From Pseudonocardia sp. C8 (GTDB lineage Bacteria > Actinomycetota > Actinomycetes > Mycobacteriales > Pseudonocardiaceae), in contig NZ_JACMTR010000002.1 of the NCBI RefSeq assembly GCF_014267175.1, positions 1,973,001 to 2,037,000 of the forward strand: a stretch of DNA of 64,000 nt. The letters run 5' to 3'. The number at the start of each line of letters is the position of its first letter. Position 1 is the stretch's first letter. Shown here in pieces: positions 50,857 through 57,775 of this stretch. Made by a program: the position numbers and the translations under genes. The notes beneath the pieces are model-generated. The model made no database searches and was not told where the DNA came from. It was given only the letters and a program-made list of their open reading frames with translations.

Positions 50857-52131
50857 ATGACTGTGACCGGCAGCGGGGACGCGGCGCGCGGGGGCGACCC
50901 GGCCGCGAGCCCGTTCCGGATCGCGGACTTCCGCGCGCTCTGGACGGCCGAGGTGCTGTCCACGGCCGGCGACCAGGCCACCCGCGTGGCGCTCACCGTC
51001 CTGGTGCTGGAGCGGACCGGGTCGGTGGCCACGTCCGCGACCGTCTACGCCCTCACCTTCCTTCCCGCCCTGCTCGGCGGGCTGCTGCTGGGGCACCTGG
51101 CCGACCGGTTCCCGCGCCGCGCGGTGATGGTCGCCGCCGACCTGGCCCGGGCCGGGCTGGTCGCGCTGATGGCGGTGCCCGGGCTCCCGCTGCCCGCGCT
51201 CGGCGCGCTGCTCGTCGTCGCGGTGCTGCTCGGCGGGCCGCACACCGCGGCCCGGTCGGCGCTGCTGCCCGACCTGCTCCCCGGGCCGCTGCTGGCGCGG
51301 GGGATCGCGCTGCGCCAGGTCTCGGCCCAGGTCGCCCAGGTCGCGGGGTTCGGCGGGGGCGGCCTGCTGGTCGCGTGGCTGACGCCGGCCGGGGCACTGC
51401 TGGCCGACGCCGGCACGTTCGTCCTGTCCGCGCTGGTCGTCGCCGTGGGGGTGGGCGCGCGCTGTGCGGTCCTCCGGGTCGGCGGGCCGGCCCGCGCCGC
51501 GCGGGTGTCCGCGGGCCGGTGGTTCGGCGGTGCCCGCGCCGGCCTGGCGCTGGTGCTGGGCTGCCCCCGGCGGCGCTACCTGGTGGCGGCCGCCTGGCTG
51601 ATCGGGATCTACATCCTGCCCGAGGCACTCGCCGCCGCGTACGCGTTCGCGATCGGTGCCGGGCCGGTCGAGGCCGGGCTGCTGATGGCGGCCGACCCGG
51701 CGGGCAGCGTGCTGGGCGCGGTGGCGTTGACGGTCGCGCCGCCGCTCGGGGAGCGATGGCTGATCCCGTTCGCGGTGGGGGCGGCGGTGCCCCTGGTGCT
51801 GACGCCGTTCGCGCCCGGCCTGTGGGCGGCGGTGGCGCTGTGGGCGCTCTCCGGGGCCTGCGCGACGGCCTGCTTGATCCAGGCGCAGTCGGGTTTCGCC
51901 CGGGCGACGCCGAGCGCGCTGCGCGGCCGGGCGACGGGTGTCGCGTCGGCGGGTCTGGTCGCCAGCCAGGGCGCCGCCGTGCTGCTGGGCGGCGTGCTGG
52001 CTCAGTGGACGGACCCGGCGGCCGCGCTCGCCGTCTTCGGGGCCGCCGGTGCGGTGTTCGCGCTCGCCGGTCTGCGGTGCCTCCGGGTGCCGGCGGCACC
52101 GGGAGGGCTCGCTCCGGGGACGGCCGGGTGA
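50857..52131 (+). CDS. major facilitator superfamily transporter
   Basis: 424 residues with about 11-12 hydrophobic segments. The MFS loop 2-3 motif is GHLADRFPRRAVM near residue 85. FRIADFRALWTAEVLSTAGDQATRVALTVLVL at the N-terminus and the overall pattern match MFS_3/enterobactin exporter-like permeases. Drug or siderophore export is possible; no neighbour indicates the substrate. ATG start with GAAGGGA upstream. Confidence 0.88.
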   Translation: MTVTGSGDAARGGDPAASPFRIADFRALWTAEVLSTAGDQATRVALTVLVLERTGSVATSATVYALTFLPALLGGLLLGHLADRFPRRAVMVAADLARAGLVALMAVPGLPLPALGALLVVAVLLGGPHTAARSALLPDLLPGPLLARGIALRQVSAQVAQVAGFGGGGLLVAWLTPAGALLADAGTFVLSALVVAVGVGARCAVLRVGGPARAARVSAGRWFGGARAGLALVLGCPRRRYLVAAAWLIGIYILPEALAAAYAFAIGAGPVEAGLLMAADPAGSVLGAVALTVAPPLGERWLIPFAVGAAVPLVLTPFAPGLWAAVALWALSGACATACLIQAQSGFARATPSALRGRATGVASAGLVASQGAAVLLGGVLAQWTDPAAALAVFGAAGAVFALAGLRCLRVPAAPGGLAPGTAG

Positions 52132-52180: not shown

Positions 52181-52201
52181 TCACCAGCCGCGGTTGCGCA
52201 T
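52181..52201 (-). CDS. hexapeptide micro-gene MRNRGW
   Basis: ATG CGC AAC CGC GGC TGG TGA on the minus strand, with GGGAGG 6 nt before the ATG. It lies between the end of the MFS gene and the start of the first GGDEF gene, from which it points away. The same peptide with one change (MRNWGW) occurs twice upstream of the second GGDEF gene. Too short for gene finders; coding status is inferred from recurrence, ribosome-binding site and context. Confidence 0.5.
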   Translation of the reverse strand: MRNRGW

Positions 52202-52354: not shown

Positions 52355-53674
52355 ATGGGGATACGCCGTCCGGGTGGCGCGACCGGGTTGCCGATCCTGG
52401 GCCTGCCCCGCCCGATGCTCGCCGTGTTCGCGGTGGTCGTGCTCGGCGCGGCCGCGCTGCTCGTCGGTGGGGCCACGACGCTCCCGCCCGACGGGACGAC
52501 CGGGACGGCGCTGCTGGGCGCGCTGGGCCTGATCGCCCTCGGCGTGGTGCACACCGAGGCCGCCACCGGCATCGAGCGGGTCCGGCGGGGCGTGGCGGAC
52601 TCGTCCTACTTCGACCTGTCCAGCGTGTGGACCTTCGCCGGTGCCCTGCTGGTTCCACCGGCCCTGGCCGGGGTGGTGGTGCTGGGTGTCTACGGGCACC
52701 TGTGGTGGCGGGTGTGGCGCCCGGCGGGGGCCCCGCTGTACCGGCACGTGTACACCACCGCGACGGTCGTGCTCGCCGCGTTCACCGCGGCGGCGCTCGT
52801 CGCGCCGGACCAGATCGCCGCCGCGGCCGGTGCCGGCCGCGGCAGCATGCTGGCGGGGTACGGCTGGCTGCTGGTGGCGATGGTCGTCTACGTCCTGGTC
52901 AACCAGGTGCTGGTGGCGGTGGCGCTGGCGCTGAGCTCCGGCCGGCGGTTCGCGTGGCGGGGCCTGCTCGGCGACGGCGACGACCACGTGCTGGAGGGCG
53001 CCACGCTCTGCCTGGCGGTGCTCGCCGCCCTGGCCGCCGTGCGCCAGCCCGCGCTGGTGCTGCTCGTGCTCCCGCCGCTGCTCCTGCTGCACCGTGCGGT
53101 GCTGATCCGCCAGCTGGAGGAGCGCGCCAACACCGACGCCAAGACCGGGCTGCTCACCGCGGCGGCCTGGCGGGGCCGGGCGCACCGGGCGCTGGCCCGC
53201 GCCCGGCGCCAGCGCGGAGCCGTGGCGGTGCTGATCCTCGACCTGGACCACTTCAAGTCCGTCAACGACGGCTACGGCCACCTGGCCGGTGACGAGGTCC
53301 TGTCCGCGGTGGCCGGCGCGCTGTCCGCCCAGGTGCGGGACGCCGACCCGGCCGGTCGGTTCGGCGGCGAGGAGTTCGTCGTGCTGCTGACCGGGCTCCC
53401 CGAGGGGGCACAGGGCCTGGAGCTCGCGCACGCGGCCGCCGAGCGGATCCGGCGGACCGTGCGGGAGCTCGTCGTGCAGGTCGAGGCCCCGGTCGGGCCG
53501 CTCACGATCACCGATCTGTCGGTGTCGGTCGGCGTCGCGCTGTCCGGGCTCGACGGTGACGTCCTCGACGAGCTCATGCAGGTCGCCGACTACGCGCTCT
53601 ACGCGGCCAAGCGCGCCGGGCGCAACCGGGTGCGGCTGGGCCGGGCGGAGGCCGATCCGGGCGCGGAGGCCTGA
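52355..53674 (+). CDS. membrane diguanylate cyclase (GGDEF protein 1)
   Basis: 439 residues from the ATG at 52355 (GTG 52352 is possible). The N-terminal membrane domain has about six segments with the sequence VVHTEAATGIERVRR near 65 and SVWTFAGALLVPP near 90. The GGDEF domain begins near 255 (DAKTGLLTAAAW, LDLDHFKSVNDGYGHLAGD); the active site GGEEF is at 337-341 and the inhibitory RxxD (RDAD) lies exactly five residues before it, so an active, product-inhibited cyclase is expected. Paralogue of the convergent gene at 53732-55093 over its whole length. Confidence 0.9.
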   Translation: MGIRRPGGATGLPILGLPRPMLAVFAVVVLGAAALLVGGATTLPPDGTTGTALLGALGLIALGVVHTEAATGIERVRRGVADSSYFDLSSVWTFAGALLVPPALAGVVVLGVYGHLWWRVWRPAGAPLYRHVYTTATVVLAAFTAAALVAPDQIAAAAGAGRGSMLAGYGWLLVAMVVYVLVNQVLVAVALALSSGRRFAWRGLLGDGDDHVLEGATLCLAVLAALAAVRQPALVLLVLPPLLLLHRAVLIRQLEERANTDAKTGLLTAAAWRGRAHRALARARRQRGAVAVLILDLDHFKSVNDGYGHLAGDEVLSAVAGALSAQVRDADPAGRFGGEEFVVLLTGLPEGAQGLELAHAAAERIRRTVRELVVQVEAPVGPLTITDLSVSVGVALSGLDGDVLDELMQVADYALYAAKRAGRNRVRLGRAEADPGAEA

Positions 53675-53731: not shown

Positions 53732-55093
53732 TCAGCCGGTCGCGGTCTCGGCGTCGCCGGTCTCCCGGAACGGGTGCGGCCCGATGCGCACGGCGTTCCG
53801 GCCGGCGCGCTTGGCCGCGTAGAGCGCCGAGTCGGCGACCTCGAGCAGCGCCGTGATCCCGCTGCCGTCCTCGGGGTACACGGCTCCGCCGATCGACACC
53901 GTGATGCCCGGGCGGTGGGGCCGGGCCGGGGCCCCCTCCGGCACCCCCGGGTCGTGGGTGCCCGCGTCCACCGGCTCCGCGGCGACCCGCCGCCGGAGCC
54001 GCTCGGCGATCTGCCGGAGCTCGTCGTGCCCGTCGTGGCCGTCGGGCCCGGCCAGCCGGGGGAGCAGCACGACGAACTCCTCGCCGCCGAACCGGCCGAC
54101 GAGGTCGTGGTCGCGCAGCTCCTCGCGCAGCACCCGGGCGGTCGCGGCGAGCACCCGGTCGCCGTAGAGGTGCCCGTGCGTGTCGTTGATCTCCTTGAAG
54201 TGGTCCAGGTCGAGGATCAGCAGGGCCGCCCGGTGCCGGCCCCGCTCGGCCAGCTGCAGCGCCTGCGCGCCGCGCAGCTGCCAGGCGGCGTGGTTGAGCA
54301 GGCCGGTCTTGGCGTCGTGGTCGGCCTTCTCGCGCAGCTGCCGGACGAGGATCGTGCGGTGCAGGGCGATGATCGGCGGCATCGCCAGCAGCGCGACCGG
54401 GGGTCCGCCGGCGAGCAGCGCGCCCGCGGTGAGCGCCCCGAGGCAGAGCGTCGCCAGCTCCAGGGCGAGCTCGTCGCCGCCGAACAGGATCCGCATGATC
54501 GGGGTGTCGGGTGCGGTCATCGCCACCACGCCGAGCACCAGGCAGGTGTTCACGACGGTGTAGGTGAGCAGGGTGAGCAGCAGCGCCACGGCGCCGGGGA
54601 GGGTGCCGTAGAGCTCGCCGGGCCGGGTGGCGGCGAGCACCCCGGCCGCGGCGTGCACCGCGAGGACGACGGTGGCCGTGCTGTAGACCTCGCGGTACAC
54701 CGGCCGCCGGTCCGGCGGGGGCACGGGGCGCAAGACGCGCAGGTACATGTGGGTGTAGACGACGACCACCACGAGCGCGCCCAGCACCGGTGGCAGCAGC
54801 AGCGCGGACGCGAACGTCCACACCGAGGTCAGGTTCACGTGGTGGGTCTCGGCGGTGTAGCGCCGGACGCGCTCGACCCCGGCGATGATCTCGGTGTGCG
54901 CGACTCCGGCCACCGTCAGGGTGGCCAGCAGCACGACCGTGTCCCCGTCGAGCCGCGGCACGTTCAGTGCCCCGGCGACGACGAGTGCCAGCGCGAGGAG
55001 CTCCACCGCGAGGACCGCGCCGAGCAGGCGGGGTGGGATCGACCACACGGGCCACCGGGTCACCTGGCGCAGGCGAACCGGGGGCGGGGCCAT
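53732..55093 (-). CDS. membrane diguanylate cyclase (GGDEF protein 2)
   Basis: 453 residues from the ATG at 55093, with GGAAGGGGGA upstream. It has the same architecture as the convergent paralogue: VAHTEIIAGVERVRR and SVWTFASALLLPPVL in the membrane domain, then DAKTGLLNHAAW and LDLDHFKEINDTHGHLYGD. Active site GGEEF at 336-340 with RDHD five residues before it (I-site). It has a longer His/Asp/Gly-rich insertion after the active site (about 350-395). The C-terminal signature ADSALYAAKRAGRN is intact. The open frame continuing upstream to 57631 is antisense to dxs and not coding. Confidence 0.9.
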   Translation of the reverse strand: MAPPPVRLRQVTRWPVWSIPPRLLGAVLAVELLALALVVAGALNVPRLDGDTVVLLATLTVAGVAHTEIIAGVERVRRYTAETHHVNLTSVWTFASALLLPPVLGALVVVVVYTHMYLRVLRPVPPPDRRPVYREVYSTATVVLAVHAAAGVLAATRPGELYGTLPGAVALLLTLLTYTVVNTCLVLGVVAMTAPDTPIMRILFGGDELALELATLCLGALTAGALLAGGPPVALLAMPPIIALHRTILVRQLREKADHDAKTGLLNHAAWQLRGAQALQLAERGRHRAALLILDLDHFKEINDTHGHLYGDRVLAATARVLREELRDHDLVGRFGGEEFVVLLPRLAGPDGHDGHDELRQIAERLRRRVAAEPVDAGTHDPGVPEGAPARPHRPGITVSIGGAVYPEDGSGITALLEVADSALYAAKRAGRNAVRIGPHPFRETGDAETATG

Positions 55094-55475
55094 GCCGTCC
55101 CCCTTCCGGTCGTGCGCGGTGATGCGCCACCCGGCCCCGCAGGGAGCCCGGCCGCCGACGTACGGGACCGATCCTAGCCTGCGGCGTCGCGGTCCGTGAT
55201 CGATGCCGCTCCGGGGCGGGGTCCCCGCTGCTCGGCCGGGCGGCCCGGTCACGCTGTGTGATCTCCGGCGCGAGAACGGCCGGTGCGTGAATGGGCAATG
55301 GTGTGCGCCCGATTGTCTGCCCGGCCGGGGTGGGTGATTATTCGTCCGGCGCCCGGCGGGAATGTTGTCCGGGCGCGGGTTCGGGCGCGGGGAAATCCCT
55401 TGCCCGACACATGCATGGCACACTATGTGTGCACCTGGACGTGCGGATGTCGTGCGATCGCGGAAAGGGGGAGCC
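55094..55475. other. upstream region shared by GGDEF-2 and the MRNWGW micro-genes
   Basis: 382 bp without a longer gene; the part from about 55250 is less GC-rich than its surroundings. It contains the palindrome at 55418-55432. TTGCCC (55400) and CACTAT (55421) form a weak candidate promoter for the micro-genes. A 97-codon open frame across the region has no ribosome-binding site or family match. Confidence 0.4.
55418..55432. promoter_or_regulatory. 15-bp palindrome upstream of the MRNWGW micro-genes
   Basis: GCACACTATGTGTGC, perfect 6-bp arms around TAT, 43 bp before the first micro-ORF. An operator-like position; the binding protein is unknown. Confidence 0.5.
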
Positions 55476-55496
55476 ATGCGCAACTGGGGGTGGTGA
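55476..55496 (+). CDS. hexapeptide micro-gene MRNWGW, copy 1
   Basis: ATG CGC AAC TGG GGG TGG TGA, preceded by GGAAAGGGGGAG at good spacing. It is divergent from GGDEF protein 2. Copy 2, 93 bp downstream, encodes the identical peptide with different codons (CGT, GGT), and both share GAAAGGGG before the start. Synonymous divergence with a conserved peptide argues that it is translated and selected. Confidence 0.6.
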   Translation: MRNWGW

Positions 55497-55568
55497 ACGC
55501 GGCGGCGTACGACGCCGATTCGCATTCTCGGAGAGTCCTGACAACGATCTTCGAAAGGGGAGCTCGCG

Positions 55569-55589
55569 ATGCGTAACTGGGGTTGGTGA
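55569..55589 (+). CDS. hexapeptide micro-gene MRNWGW, copy 2
   Basis: ATG CGT AAC TGG GGT TGG TGA, preceded by GAAAGGGGAGC. Same peptide as copy 1. A strong hairpin (55617-55667) follows 27 nt after the stop and may end the transcript before dxs. Confidence 0.6.
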
Positions 55590-55816: not shown

Positions 55817-57775
55817 GTGACGACGAACGGGGGGCTCGCCGGGATCCGGCGACCGGCCGACCTGCGCGCCCTGTGCACGGAGGAGCTGGCGTCGCTCGCG
55901 GCGGAGATCCGCGGCTTCCTGATCAGGGCGGTGTCGCGCACCGGTGGACACCTCGGGCCCAACCTGGGTGTGGTCGAGCTGACCCTCGCCCTGCACCGGG
56001 TCTTCGACTCGCCGCACGACACGCTGATCTGGGACACGGGCCACCAGGCGTACGTGCACAAGCTGCTCACGGGCCGGCAGGACGGCTGGGAGCGGCTGAA
56101 GAAGACCGGCGGGCTGTCCGGCTACCCGAGCCGGGCCGAGTCCGAGCACGACCACGTGGAGTCCAGCCACGCGTCGTCCTCGCTGTCCTGGGCGGACGGC
56201 ATCGCGCGGGCGAACGCGCTGGCCGGCCGTGACCAGCACGTGGTCGCGGTGATCGGGGACGGGGCACTGACCGGGGGGATGGCCTGGGAGGCCCTCAACA
56301 ACATCGCGTCCGGTGTCGACCGCAACCTGGTGATCGTGGTCAACGACAACGGGCGGTCGTACTCGCCGACGATCGGCGGGCTGGCCGACCGGCTCGCCTC
56401 GCTGCGGCTGCAGCCCGGCTACGAGCGGGTGCTCGAGGCCGGGAAGCGGACCGTGCGCGGCACCCCGGTCGTGGGGCCGGCCATCTACGCCGGCCTGCAC
56501 GCGTTCAAGGCCGGGGTGAAGGACGCGCTGAGCCCGCAGGAGCTGTTCGCCGACCTGGGCCTGAAGTACTTCGGCCCGGTCGATGGCCACGACATCGCCC
56601 AGGTCGAGTCGGCGCTGCGCCGGGCGAAGCGGTTCGGCGGGCCGGTGATCGTGCACGCGGTGACCCGCAAGGGCAACGGCTACCCGCCGGCCGAGAACGA
56701 CGAGGCCGAGCAGATGCACAGCCCGGCCGCGTTCGACCCGGAGACCGGGACGCCCACCGGGGAGCCGAAGACCGGGTGGACCGACGTGTTCGCCGAGGAG
56801 ATCGTCGAGCTGGGCGAGCAGCGCGCCGATGTCGTCGCGATCACGGCGGCGATGCTCGGCCCGACCGGGCTGGCGCCGTTCGCCGCCGCTCACCCGGACC
56901 GGTGGATCGACGTCGGCATCGCCGAGCAGCACGCCCTGGCCACCGCGGCCGGGCTGTCCCGGGCCGGGATGCACCCGGTCGTCGCGCTGTACTCGACGTT
57001 CCTCAACCGCGGATTCGACCAGCTGCTGATGGACGTCGGCCTGCACGGCGAGCGGCTCACGCTGATGCTCGACCGCTCCGGGGTCACCGGCAGCGACGGG
57101 CCGTCGCACAACGGCATGTGGGACCTGTCGCTGCTGGGGATCGTGCCCGGCATGCGGGTCGCCGCCCCGCGCGACGAGGCGACGCTGCGCGAGGAGTTCC
57201 GCGAGGCCGTCGCGGTGACCGACGGGCCGACGGCGGTGCGCTACCCGAAGGGCTCGGTGATCGGCTCGGTGCCGGCGGTGCGCCGGCTCCCCGGGCGGGC
57301 CGGGGTCGACGTGCTGCACGAGCCGGGCGGGGACACCGCCGGGGACGCCCAGGTGCTGATGGTGTGCGTCGGCGCGTTCGGCGCGCTCGGTGTCGCCGCC
57401 GCGAAACGGCTCGCCGACCAGGGCGTGGGCGTCACCGTGGTGGACCCGCGCTGGGTGCTGCCGGTGCCGCGGGAGCTGCTCGCCCTCGCCGCCGACCACC
57501 AGCTCGTCGTGACCGTGTCCGACTGCGGCACGCACGGCGGCTTCGGCTCGGCGCTGTCCGACGCGTTGCGGGCGGCCGACGTCGACGTCCGCCAGCGGGA
57601 CCTCGCCCTGCCGCAGGCCTACCTGGAGCACGGCAGCCGCGACGACGTCCTCGCCGCGGCCGGGCTGACCGAGCAGGACGTGGCCCGGCGGATCACCGAG
57701 TGGGCCGCCGCGGCGGCGCCCTCGGAGACCGGCGCCGGCGCGGAGGCCGAGCTCGACGCGGAACGGGCACGCTGA
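55817..57775 (+). CDS. dxs: 1-deoxy-D-xylulose-5-phosphate synthase Dxs
   Basis: Thiamine-diphosphate enzyme joining pyruvate and glyceraldehyde 3-phosphate; entry to the MEP isoprenoid pathway. 652 residues from the GTG at 55817 with GGAGG upstream ([19 protein letters not shown]). Motifs: [55 protein letters not shown] (ThDP), [16 protein letters not shown], and [21 protein letters not shown] near 55735 may be its -10 box. TGATG junction with the next gene. Confidence 0.96.

Follow-up and report, generated by a model that had tools for sequence, protein, structure and literature searches.

In Pseudonocardia sp. C8, two genes of six sense codons encode the same hexapeptide, MRNWGW, and face away from a gene for a membrane diguanylate cyclase (GG2; Table 1). 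They lie in a stretch of 64,000 nucleotides (contig NZ_JACMTR010000002.1, positions 1,973,001 to 2,037,000), which is referred to as the window. An earlier note, made from the letters alone, had described the pair as two open reading frames (ORFs) 93 bp apart, with two wobble differences and a ribosome-binding site (RBS) each, and reading of the sequence confirmed all of this: both ORFs are preceded by a GAAAGGGG-type site, the start-to-start distance is 93 bp, and the sole differences are at third codon positions, one in the Arg and one in the Gly codon. The TGA stops occupy 55494-55496 and 55587-55589. The exact MRNWGW pattern matched the window only at these two genes; when up to three mismatches were allowed, there were three matches (mean of 0.02 in 100 shuffles), the third being a gene for MRNRGW on the minus strand. 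The pair was also the window's sole pair of RBS-preceded micro-ORFs (5-9 codons) with the same peptide, and since no such pair arose in any of 100 first-order Markov windows, the view that a chance match is unlikely was upheld.

Among 100 related genomes (including its own), the exact pattern was found in six, all Pseudonocardia, and when GTG starts were permitted, the genes were present as a pair in each of the six. Across these orthologous loci, column identity over the whole aligned region averages 65%, and the only variable bases within the ORFs are the first base of the start codon and the Arg and Gly wobbles; the proposal that the peptide itself is selected is thus supported. In the same alignment, bases 1-6 of ACGTGCGGATGT, a possible promoter or regulator site, are invariant. 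The perfect palindrome GCACACTATGTGTGC (55418-55432, 5′ of the array) was considered as an operator and dropped because it is absent from the orthologues.

The MRNWGW pair and GG2 form one half of a mirrored arrangement. In window order, a permease of the major facilitator superfamily (MFS), the MRNRGW gene, and a paralogous cyclase gene (GG1, convergent with GG2) are followed by GG2 and the two MRNWGW genes. At the position equivalent to that of MRNRGW, a single (M/V)RNRGW gene is present in five other loci, two copies in a further one (L060), and MDNRGW in two (L019 and L123). Outside the window, the same genome carries six (M/V)RNWNW copies by a third cyclase paralogue; three matches in this genome span the transmembrane (TM) domain of the cyclase, and a divergent micropeptide locus lies at each.

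Table 1. Features at the MRNWGW locus; positions count from the first nucleotide of the window.
Feature	Position	Strand	Basis
Micropeptide gene 1, MRNWGW, ATGCGCAACTGGGGGTGGTGA	55476..55496	+	ORF read; orthologues in five further genomes
Micropeptide gene 2, MRNWGW, synonymous copy, ATGCGTAACTGGGGTTGGTGA	55569..55589	+	ORF read; ortholog alignment
Ribosome-binding site of gene 1, purine-rich	55463..55473	+	read from sequence
Ribosome-binding site of gene 2, purine-rich	55553..55562	+	read from sequence
ACGTGCGGATGT 5′ of gene 1, possible promoter or regulator site	55439..55450	+	ortholog alignment
GG2, membrane diguanylate cyclase, proposed MRNWGW receptor	53732..55093	-	profile match, TM prediction, predicted fold
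GG1, paralogous membrane diguanylate cyclase, proposed MRNRGW receptor (possible TTG start 52340)	52355..53674	+	
Micropeptide gene MRNRGW, divergent from GG1	52181..52201	-	pattern match
MFS permease, module-linked subfamily	50857..52131	+	PF07690 and PF05977
dxs, first gene 3′ of the array, neighbour outside the module	55817..57775	+	TIGR00204

Recurrence of micropeptide arrays opposite the cyclase

MRNWGW was recognized as one member of a large family once residue 5 was loosened and the assumptions on sequence were then dropped. Genes of the form (M/V)RNWxW occurred in 13 of 60 Pseudonocardia genomes (the reversed pattern had no match). Residue x is constant within an array, apart from one R copy in an H array, and varies between loci of one genome (G, N, T, H, E, and D). 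At every one of the 20 RNWxW loci besides that of the window (15 tandem and 5 single-copy), a cyclase gene of the same family lies 0.3-2.7 kb away. The DNA around homologues of the cyclase TM domain (the proposed receptors) was scanned for any micro-ORF (5-9 codons) with an RBS that recurs close by. Divergent arrays accompany 89 of the 157 unique receptors, and no array lies on the receptor strand. The 157 mix loci found receptor-first (31 of 78 with an array) with those found array-first (57 of 77) and those of the window (1 of 2); for receptor-first loci outside Pseudonocardia, 19 of 37 carried an array, again never on the same strand. For 26 of the 68 array-less receptors, one candidate gene was present on the divergent strand; the other strand had no candidates. 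The pattern behind the single-gene calls, the peptide-receptor pairs, and the Pseudonocardia census was shaped by peptides previously seen.

The arrays contain 2-22 copies of one peptide, which was 6-8 residues long in all 92 arrays (551 copies; scanner range, 5-9 residues). The 116 peptide-receptor pairs comprise 49 distinct peptides, mostly M-R-[N/D]-x-x-W-(x)(x), such as RNKSW (up to 22 copies), RNRAW, RNHNW, RNHSWT, RDNTWT, RDTTWS, RDNNWTR, RDKIW, RGNSWD, and RANSWD. The sixth residue is Trp in 53 of 56 arrays of hexapeptides and in every array of heptapeptides (27 of 27) and octapeptides (9 of 9). Three RNKSW arrays contain 3 to 6 SNKSW copies, which are possibly antagonists or drifting. 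The soil actinobacteria with arrays belong (as named for 80 of 93 loci) to Pseudonocardia, Amycolatopsis, Saccharothrix, Jiangella, and Phytoactinopolyspora. In a census of Pseudonocardia, at least 158 receptors were listed, on stretches from 59 of 60 genomes (G020 had none among the matches listed): 60 with arrays, 24 with single genes, 34 that closely follow another receptor, and 40 for which no peptide was called, with no array and one single candidate on the receptor strand. The pattern detected a micropeptide locus in 51 of the 59 genomes, and in 55 when four with pattern-missed arrays (MGKDWN, SKDWN) are added. At four loci (L261, L291, L282, and L295), arrays of MGKDWN or (M/V)SKDWN lacking Arg-2 lie next to a receptor and an MFS permease; Arg-2 is therefore not universal. 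Wherever more than one locus was called in a genome, each had a distinct peptide (20 of 20 genomes, among the receptors listed).

No micropeptide gene was found at eight distant receptor homologues, mostly of family f31, whose sensor domain may have another ligand. A heptapeptide triple pattern had no match in 396 genomes of the phylum (two control matches in one genome), a set that, among the genomes listed, holds no member of the Jiangella-type family f34 and only G000 of family f1. Matches to the collection pattern in other phyla had neither a receptor nor Arg-2 arrays, and a pattern-matching locus of Dactylosporangium (L174) has no array and no receptor. Another matching locus (L243:700-1500) is a CRISPR array next to cas-type genes (recognized by eye); that its repeat encodes MRNHAWLH by coincidence calls for caution in micro-ORF scans.

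That array passed the DNA pattern, and in some arrays (such as MRGKNW, L133) the copies are spaced at a constant 61 bp, as if duplicated recently, which, together with the tandem layout, raises the question of whether the copies are DNA or RNA repeats (CRISPR-like, protein-binding, or structured RNA) and not genes. Several properties make this explanation scarcely credible. Identity between neighbouring copies is 95% within the ORF and 47-50% for the flanks, and the spacing is irregular (median, 67 nt), without reading-frame phase. Starts alternate between ATG (317 copies) and GTG (231; TTG in 3), and third bases vary with the peptide kept: adjacent copies differ at 295 codons synonymously and at 70 otherwise, 16% synonymous being expected at random, although the excess is inflated because the scanner tolerated no more than one differing residue. 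The window had no match in an Rfam search. A purine-rich site precedes 543 of 551 copies, partly by construction. Selection on the peptides is thus well supported, and, by sequence analysis, conservation is on the peptide rather than on its DNA. The outcome that the earlier note had named as support, a peptide conserved through synonymous changes close to GGDEF genes, was observed.

Co-divergence of peptide and proposed receptor

In GG2, a predicted TM domain (residues 1-255) precedes a GGDEF domain (about 255-436; PF00990, E 2.6e-37). For the three receptors of the genome, Pfam recognized GGDEF alone, the TM part being a multi-helix membrane domain; the sensor domain matched no Pfam family and no PDB sequence. 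Because a fold search with the full-length protein gave only GGDEF-containing structures among the best 50, the TM domain was modelled separately, and its predicted fold appears to resemble the S-components of energy-coupling factor (ECF) transporters. Of the 148 receptors having enough sequence, 147 carry the GG(D/E)EF motif (L161 has a variant motif); the inhibitory site (I-site) was found in 107 of 108, and the output is therefore taken, as a prediction, to be cyclic di-GMP (c-di-GMP). Some Pseudonocardia (five loci) have four successive receptor genes, some of them preceded by arrays or single peptide genes, a possible multi-input relay. The receptor closest to one RNWHW array (about 2 kb; L049:6828-7550) has only 10 residues in open frame after the TM match and would be a broken or mis-sequenced cyclase, and a homologue with an in-frame TAG adjoining an intact one (G196:C3:297816-298325) is probably a decaying copy.

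Differences in peptide went with differences in the TM domain (Mantel r between the two distances, 0.74; 0 of 2,000 permutations) across the 116 of 157 receptors with a called peptide (49 peptides). Receptor pairs more than 80% identical shared the peptide in 93-100% of cases, and for those less than 50% identical this fraction rounds to 0.00. In a partial test, the correlation persisted for the TM domain given GGDEF (r 0.49) and vanished for GGDEF given the TM domain (-0.02); this set consisted of 108 of the 116, selected for the GG(E/D)EF motif and length (seven cut or short receptors and L161 were left out), so that all 108 carry the motif by selection. Thus, the peptide tracks the TM domain of the receptor and not its GGDEF domain. 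Some of the raw correlation is explained by common descent, which does not easily account for the contrast between the two domains.

This matching bears on whether the minigenes merely gauge translation or Trp-tRNA supply inside the cell, with nascent or dropped-off peptides acting on the cyclase and the permease clearing them. Leaderless products and the Trp codon at position 6 of 89 of 92 arrays would suit such a gauge, as would the use of TGA as sole stop (90 of 92 arrays, 547 of 551 copies, compared with TGA in 118 of 148 receptor genes). However, 49 receptor-matched peptides are unexpected for a pure Trp or ribosome sensor, and RNREY contains no Trp at all; we regard the gauge as improbable. 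The Trp-sensing leader that the earlier note had held equally possible is likewise unlikely, because the arrays point away from the cyclase, are convergent with the MFS gene wherever it is present except at 7 loci (57 of 64), have unrelated next genes between loci (dxs, threonylcarbamoyl-AMP synthase), and vary in sequence with the receptor.

The linked permease and the proposed module

Of 107 loci, 64 encode a dedicated MFS permease on the far side of the array at a distance of no more than 1 kb (57 convergent, 7 codirectional). The 107 are the 116 minus nine that had no match and extended less than 700 bp past the array. Among 39 receptors for which no micropeptide was called, the same MFS occurs at 1. 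PF05977 matched 7 of 8 MFS proteins tested, 6 of them over the cut-off (window protein, 46.2 bits; cut-off, 27 bits). The subfamily is present in 48 of 60 Pseudonocardia genomes, as a single copy in 46 of these, and in at least 45 of the 48 the best match and a receptor share a contig and are no more than 5 kb apart; in the remaining three they are on different contigs (among the receptors listed). In the mirrored arrangement of the window, a single permease would serve both receptor loci. RNWxW loci mostly have no adjacent MFS, and in the genome of strain C8 one MFS of this kind was detected at E 1e-10. In the 25 neighbour clusters of widest distribution, only receptor and MFS stand out across lineages. 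The suggestion of a signalling peptide in the earlier note is supported.

An exporter-like permease adjoining minimal genes, like those of the biarylitides, could also belong to an ultra-short ribosomally synthesized and post-translationally modified peptide (RiPP) or antimicrobial, with the cyclase as cluster regulator. We give this very little credence, since no modifying enzyme was recognized in the 25 clusters (not all of which were run against family libraries) and the window holds no P450, as the earlier note had stated (0 of the 16 PF00067 matches of the genome lie there). The biarylitide-like reading offered in that note is not supported, in view of both this absence and the recurring partners, a diguanylate cyclase and an MFS permease.

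The existence of a module is near certain, and it is probably a three-part micropeptide signalling module in which leaderless peptides are the specific ligands of their paired cyclases. The tandem minigenes would yield a single leaderless peptide of 6-8 residues (here fMRNWGW), its dose set by copy number. The peptide would be the specific ligand of the divergently encoded cyclase: binding to the S-component-like TM domain would switch the GGDEF domain, and c-di-GMP would report the peptide level. The MFS permease would carry the peptide across the membrane and thereby set its level. Export is the probable direction, possibly with later re-entry, as for export-and-return pheromones. In vivo translation, binding of the ligand, transport direction, and the effect on activity are inferred from sequence; the ligand mechanism appears likely.

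The side from which the peptide binds is the point on which a quorum-sensing pheromone differs, which the MFS would export and the receptor bind from outside, signalling via c-di-GMP. The linked permease with its secretion-type Pfam match would fit, as would the distinct peptide at each called locus of a genome and the predicted S-component-like fold, ECF S-components binding vitamins on their outer face. Peptide-linked divergence, however, falls mainly in two of the presumed ligand-side loops, which are cytoplasmic by charge, and not in the predicted outer loops. Binding from outside is thus rather unlikely, and the cytoplasmic face is preferred as the binding compartment, as far as predicted topology allows. 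A more detailed version of the signalling module, with several insulated peptide-cyclase channels in each genome, an inverted S-component-like domain bound from the cytoplasmic face, and one shared MFS, is a fair possibility and is advanced tentatively.

Known peptide systems and implications

In Rgg/SHP systems, the peptide gene is often divergent from the receptor gene, and the RRNPP pairs of Bacillota (Rgg/SHP, ComR/ComS) resemble the present loci in that a small peptide gene adjoins the receptor gene and the peptide code varies with the receptor. RRNPP propeptides comprise 10-100 residues and are mostly exported by SEC, and the receptors comprise 250-500 residues with tetratricopeptide repeats (PMC10075063). 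The ORFs described here have 6-8 codons (those in the window stop after six, short of the propeptide range), are repeated up to 22 times, and are too short to include a signal sequence. The proposed receptor, in Actinomycetes, is a diguanylate cyclase of the membrane, without tetratricopeptide repeats in the three proteins searched with Pfam (those of strain C8). Biarylitides, derived from five-residue RiPP precursors (MRYYH), share a gene of few codons that escapes automatic detection; their bridge is made by a dedicated P450 (PMC13417212). The loci described here differ in having several copies and cyclase and MFS partners, with no P450 in the window; between the RNWNW array and the closest PF00067 match lie about 64 kb. 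The precursor of microcin C, MccA, is the product of a heptapeptide gene and thus a further case of a minimal gene for a whole peptide, but no adenylating MccB-type partner was recognized among the recurring neighbours (judged without a family-model test), the partners being cyclase and MFS. MASE-type membrane-sensor diguanylate cyclases combine a multi-TM domain with GGDEF, as the receptors do, and the predicted TM fold appears to resemble that of S-components; the differences are a sensor without a Pfam family or PDB match and a gene-encoded candidate ligand adjoining it. Searches of the open-licence PMC literature by terms gave no description of such a system, which, within the limits of these searches, looks undescribed. 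In its working, the module is RRNPP-like, yet the defining features of RRNPP are missing, as is, in the window, the P450 of biarylitides.

If the proposal is true, Actinomycetes possess peptide signalling wired straight to a second messenger, one that governs development in related bacteria, with ligands that are, to our knowledge, among the shortest directly gene-encoded. Genes this short fall under the usual annotation length limits, and ligands of other c-di-GMP enzymes may therefore be overlooked. The 49 natural peptides, each found with its proposed receptor, would provide ready and cheap test material.
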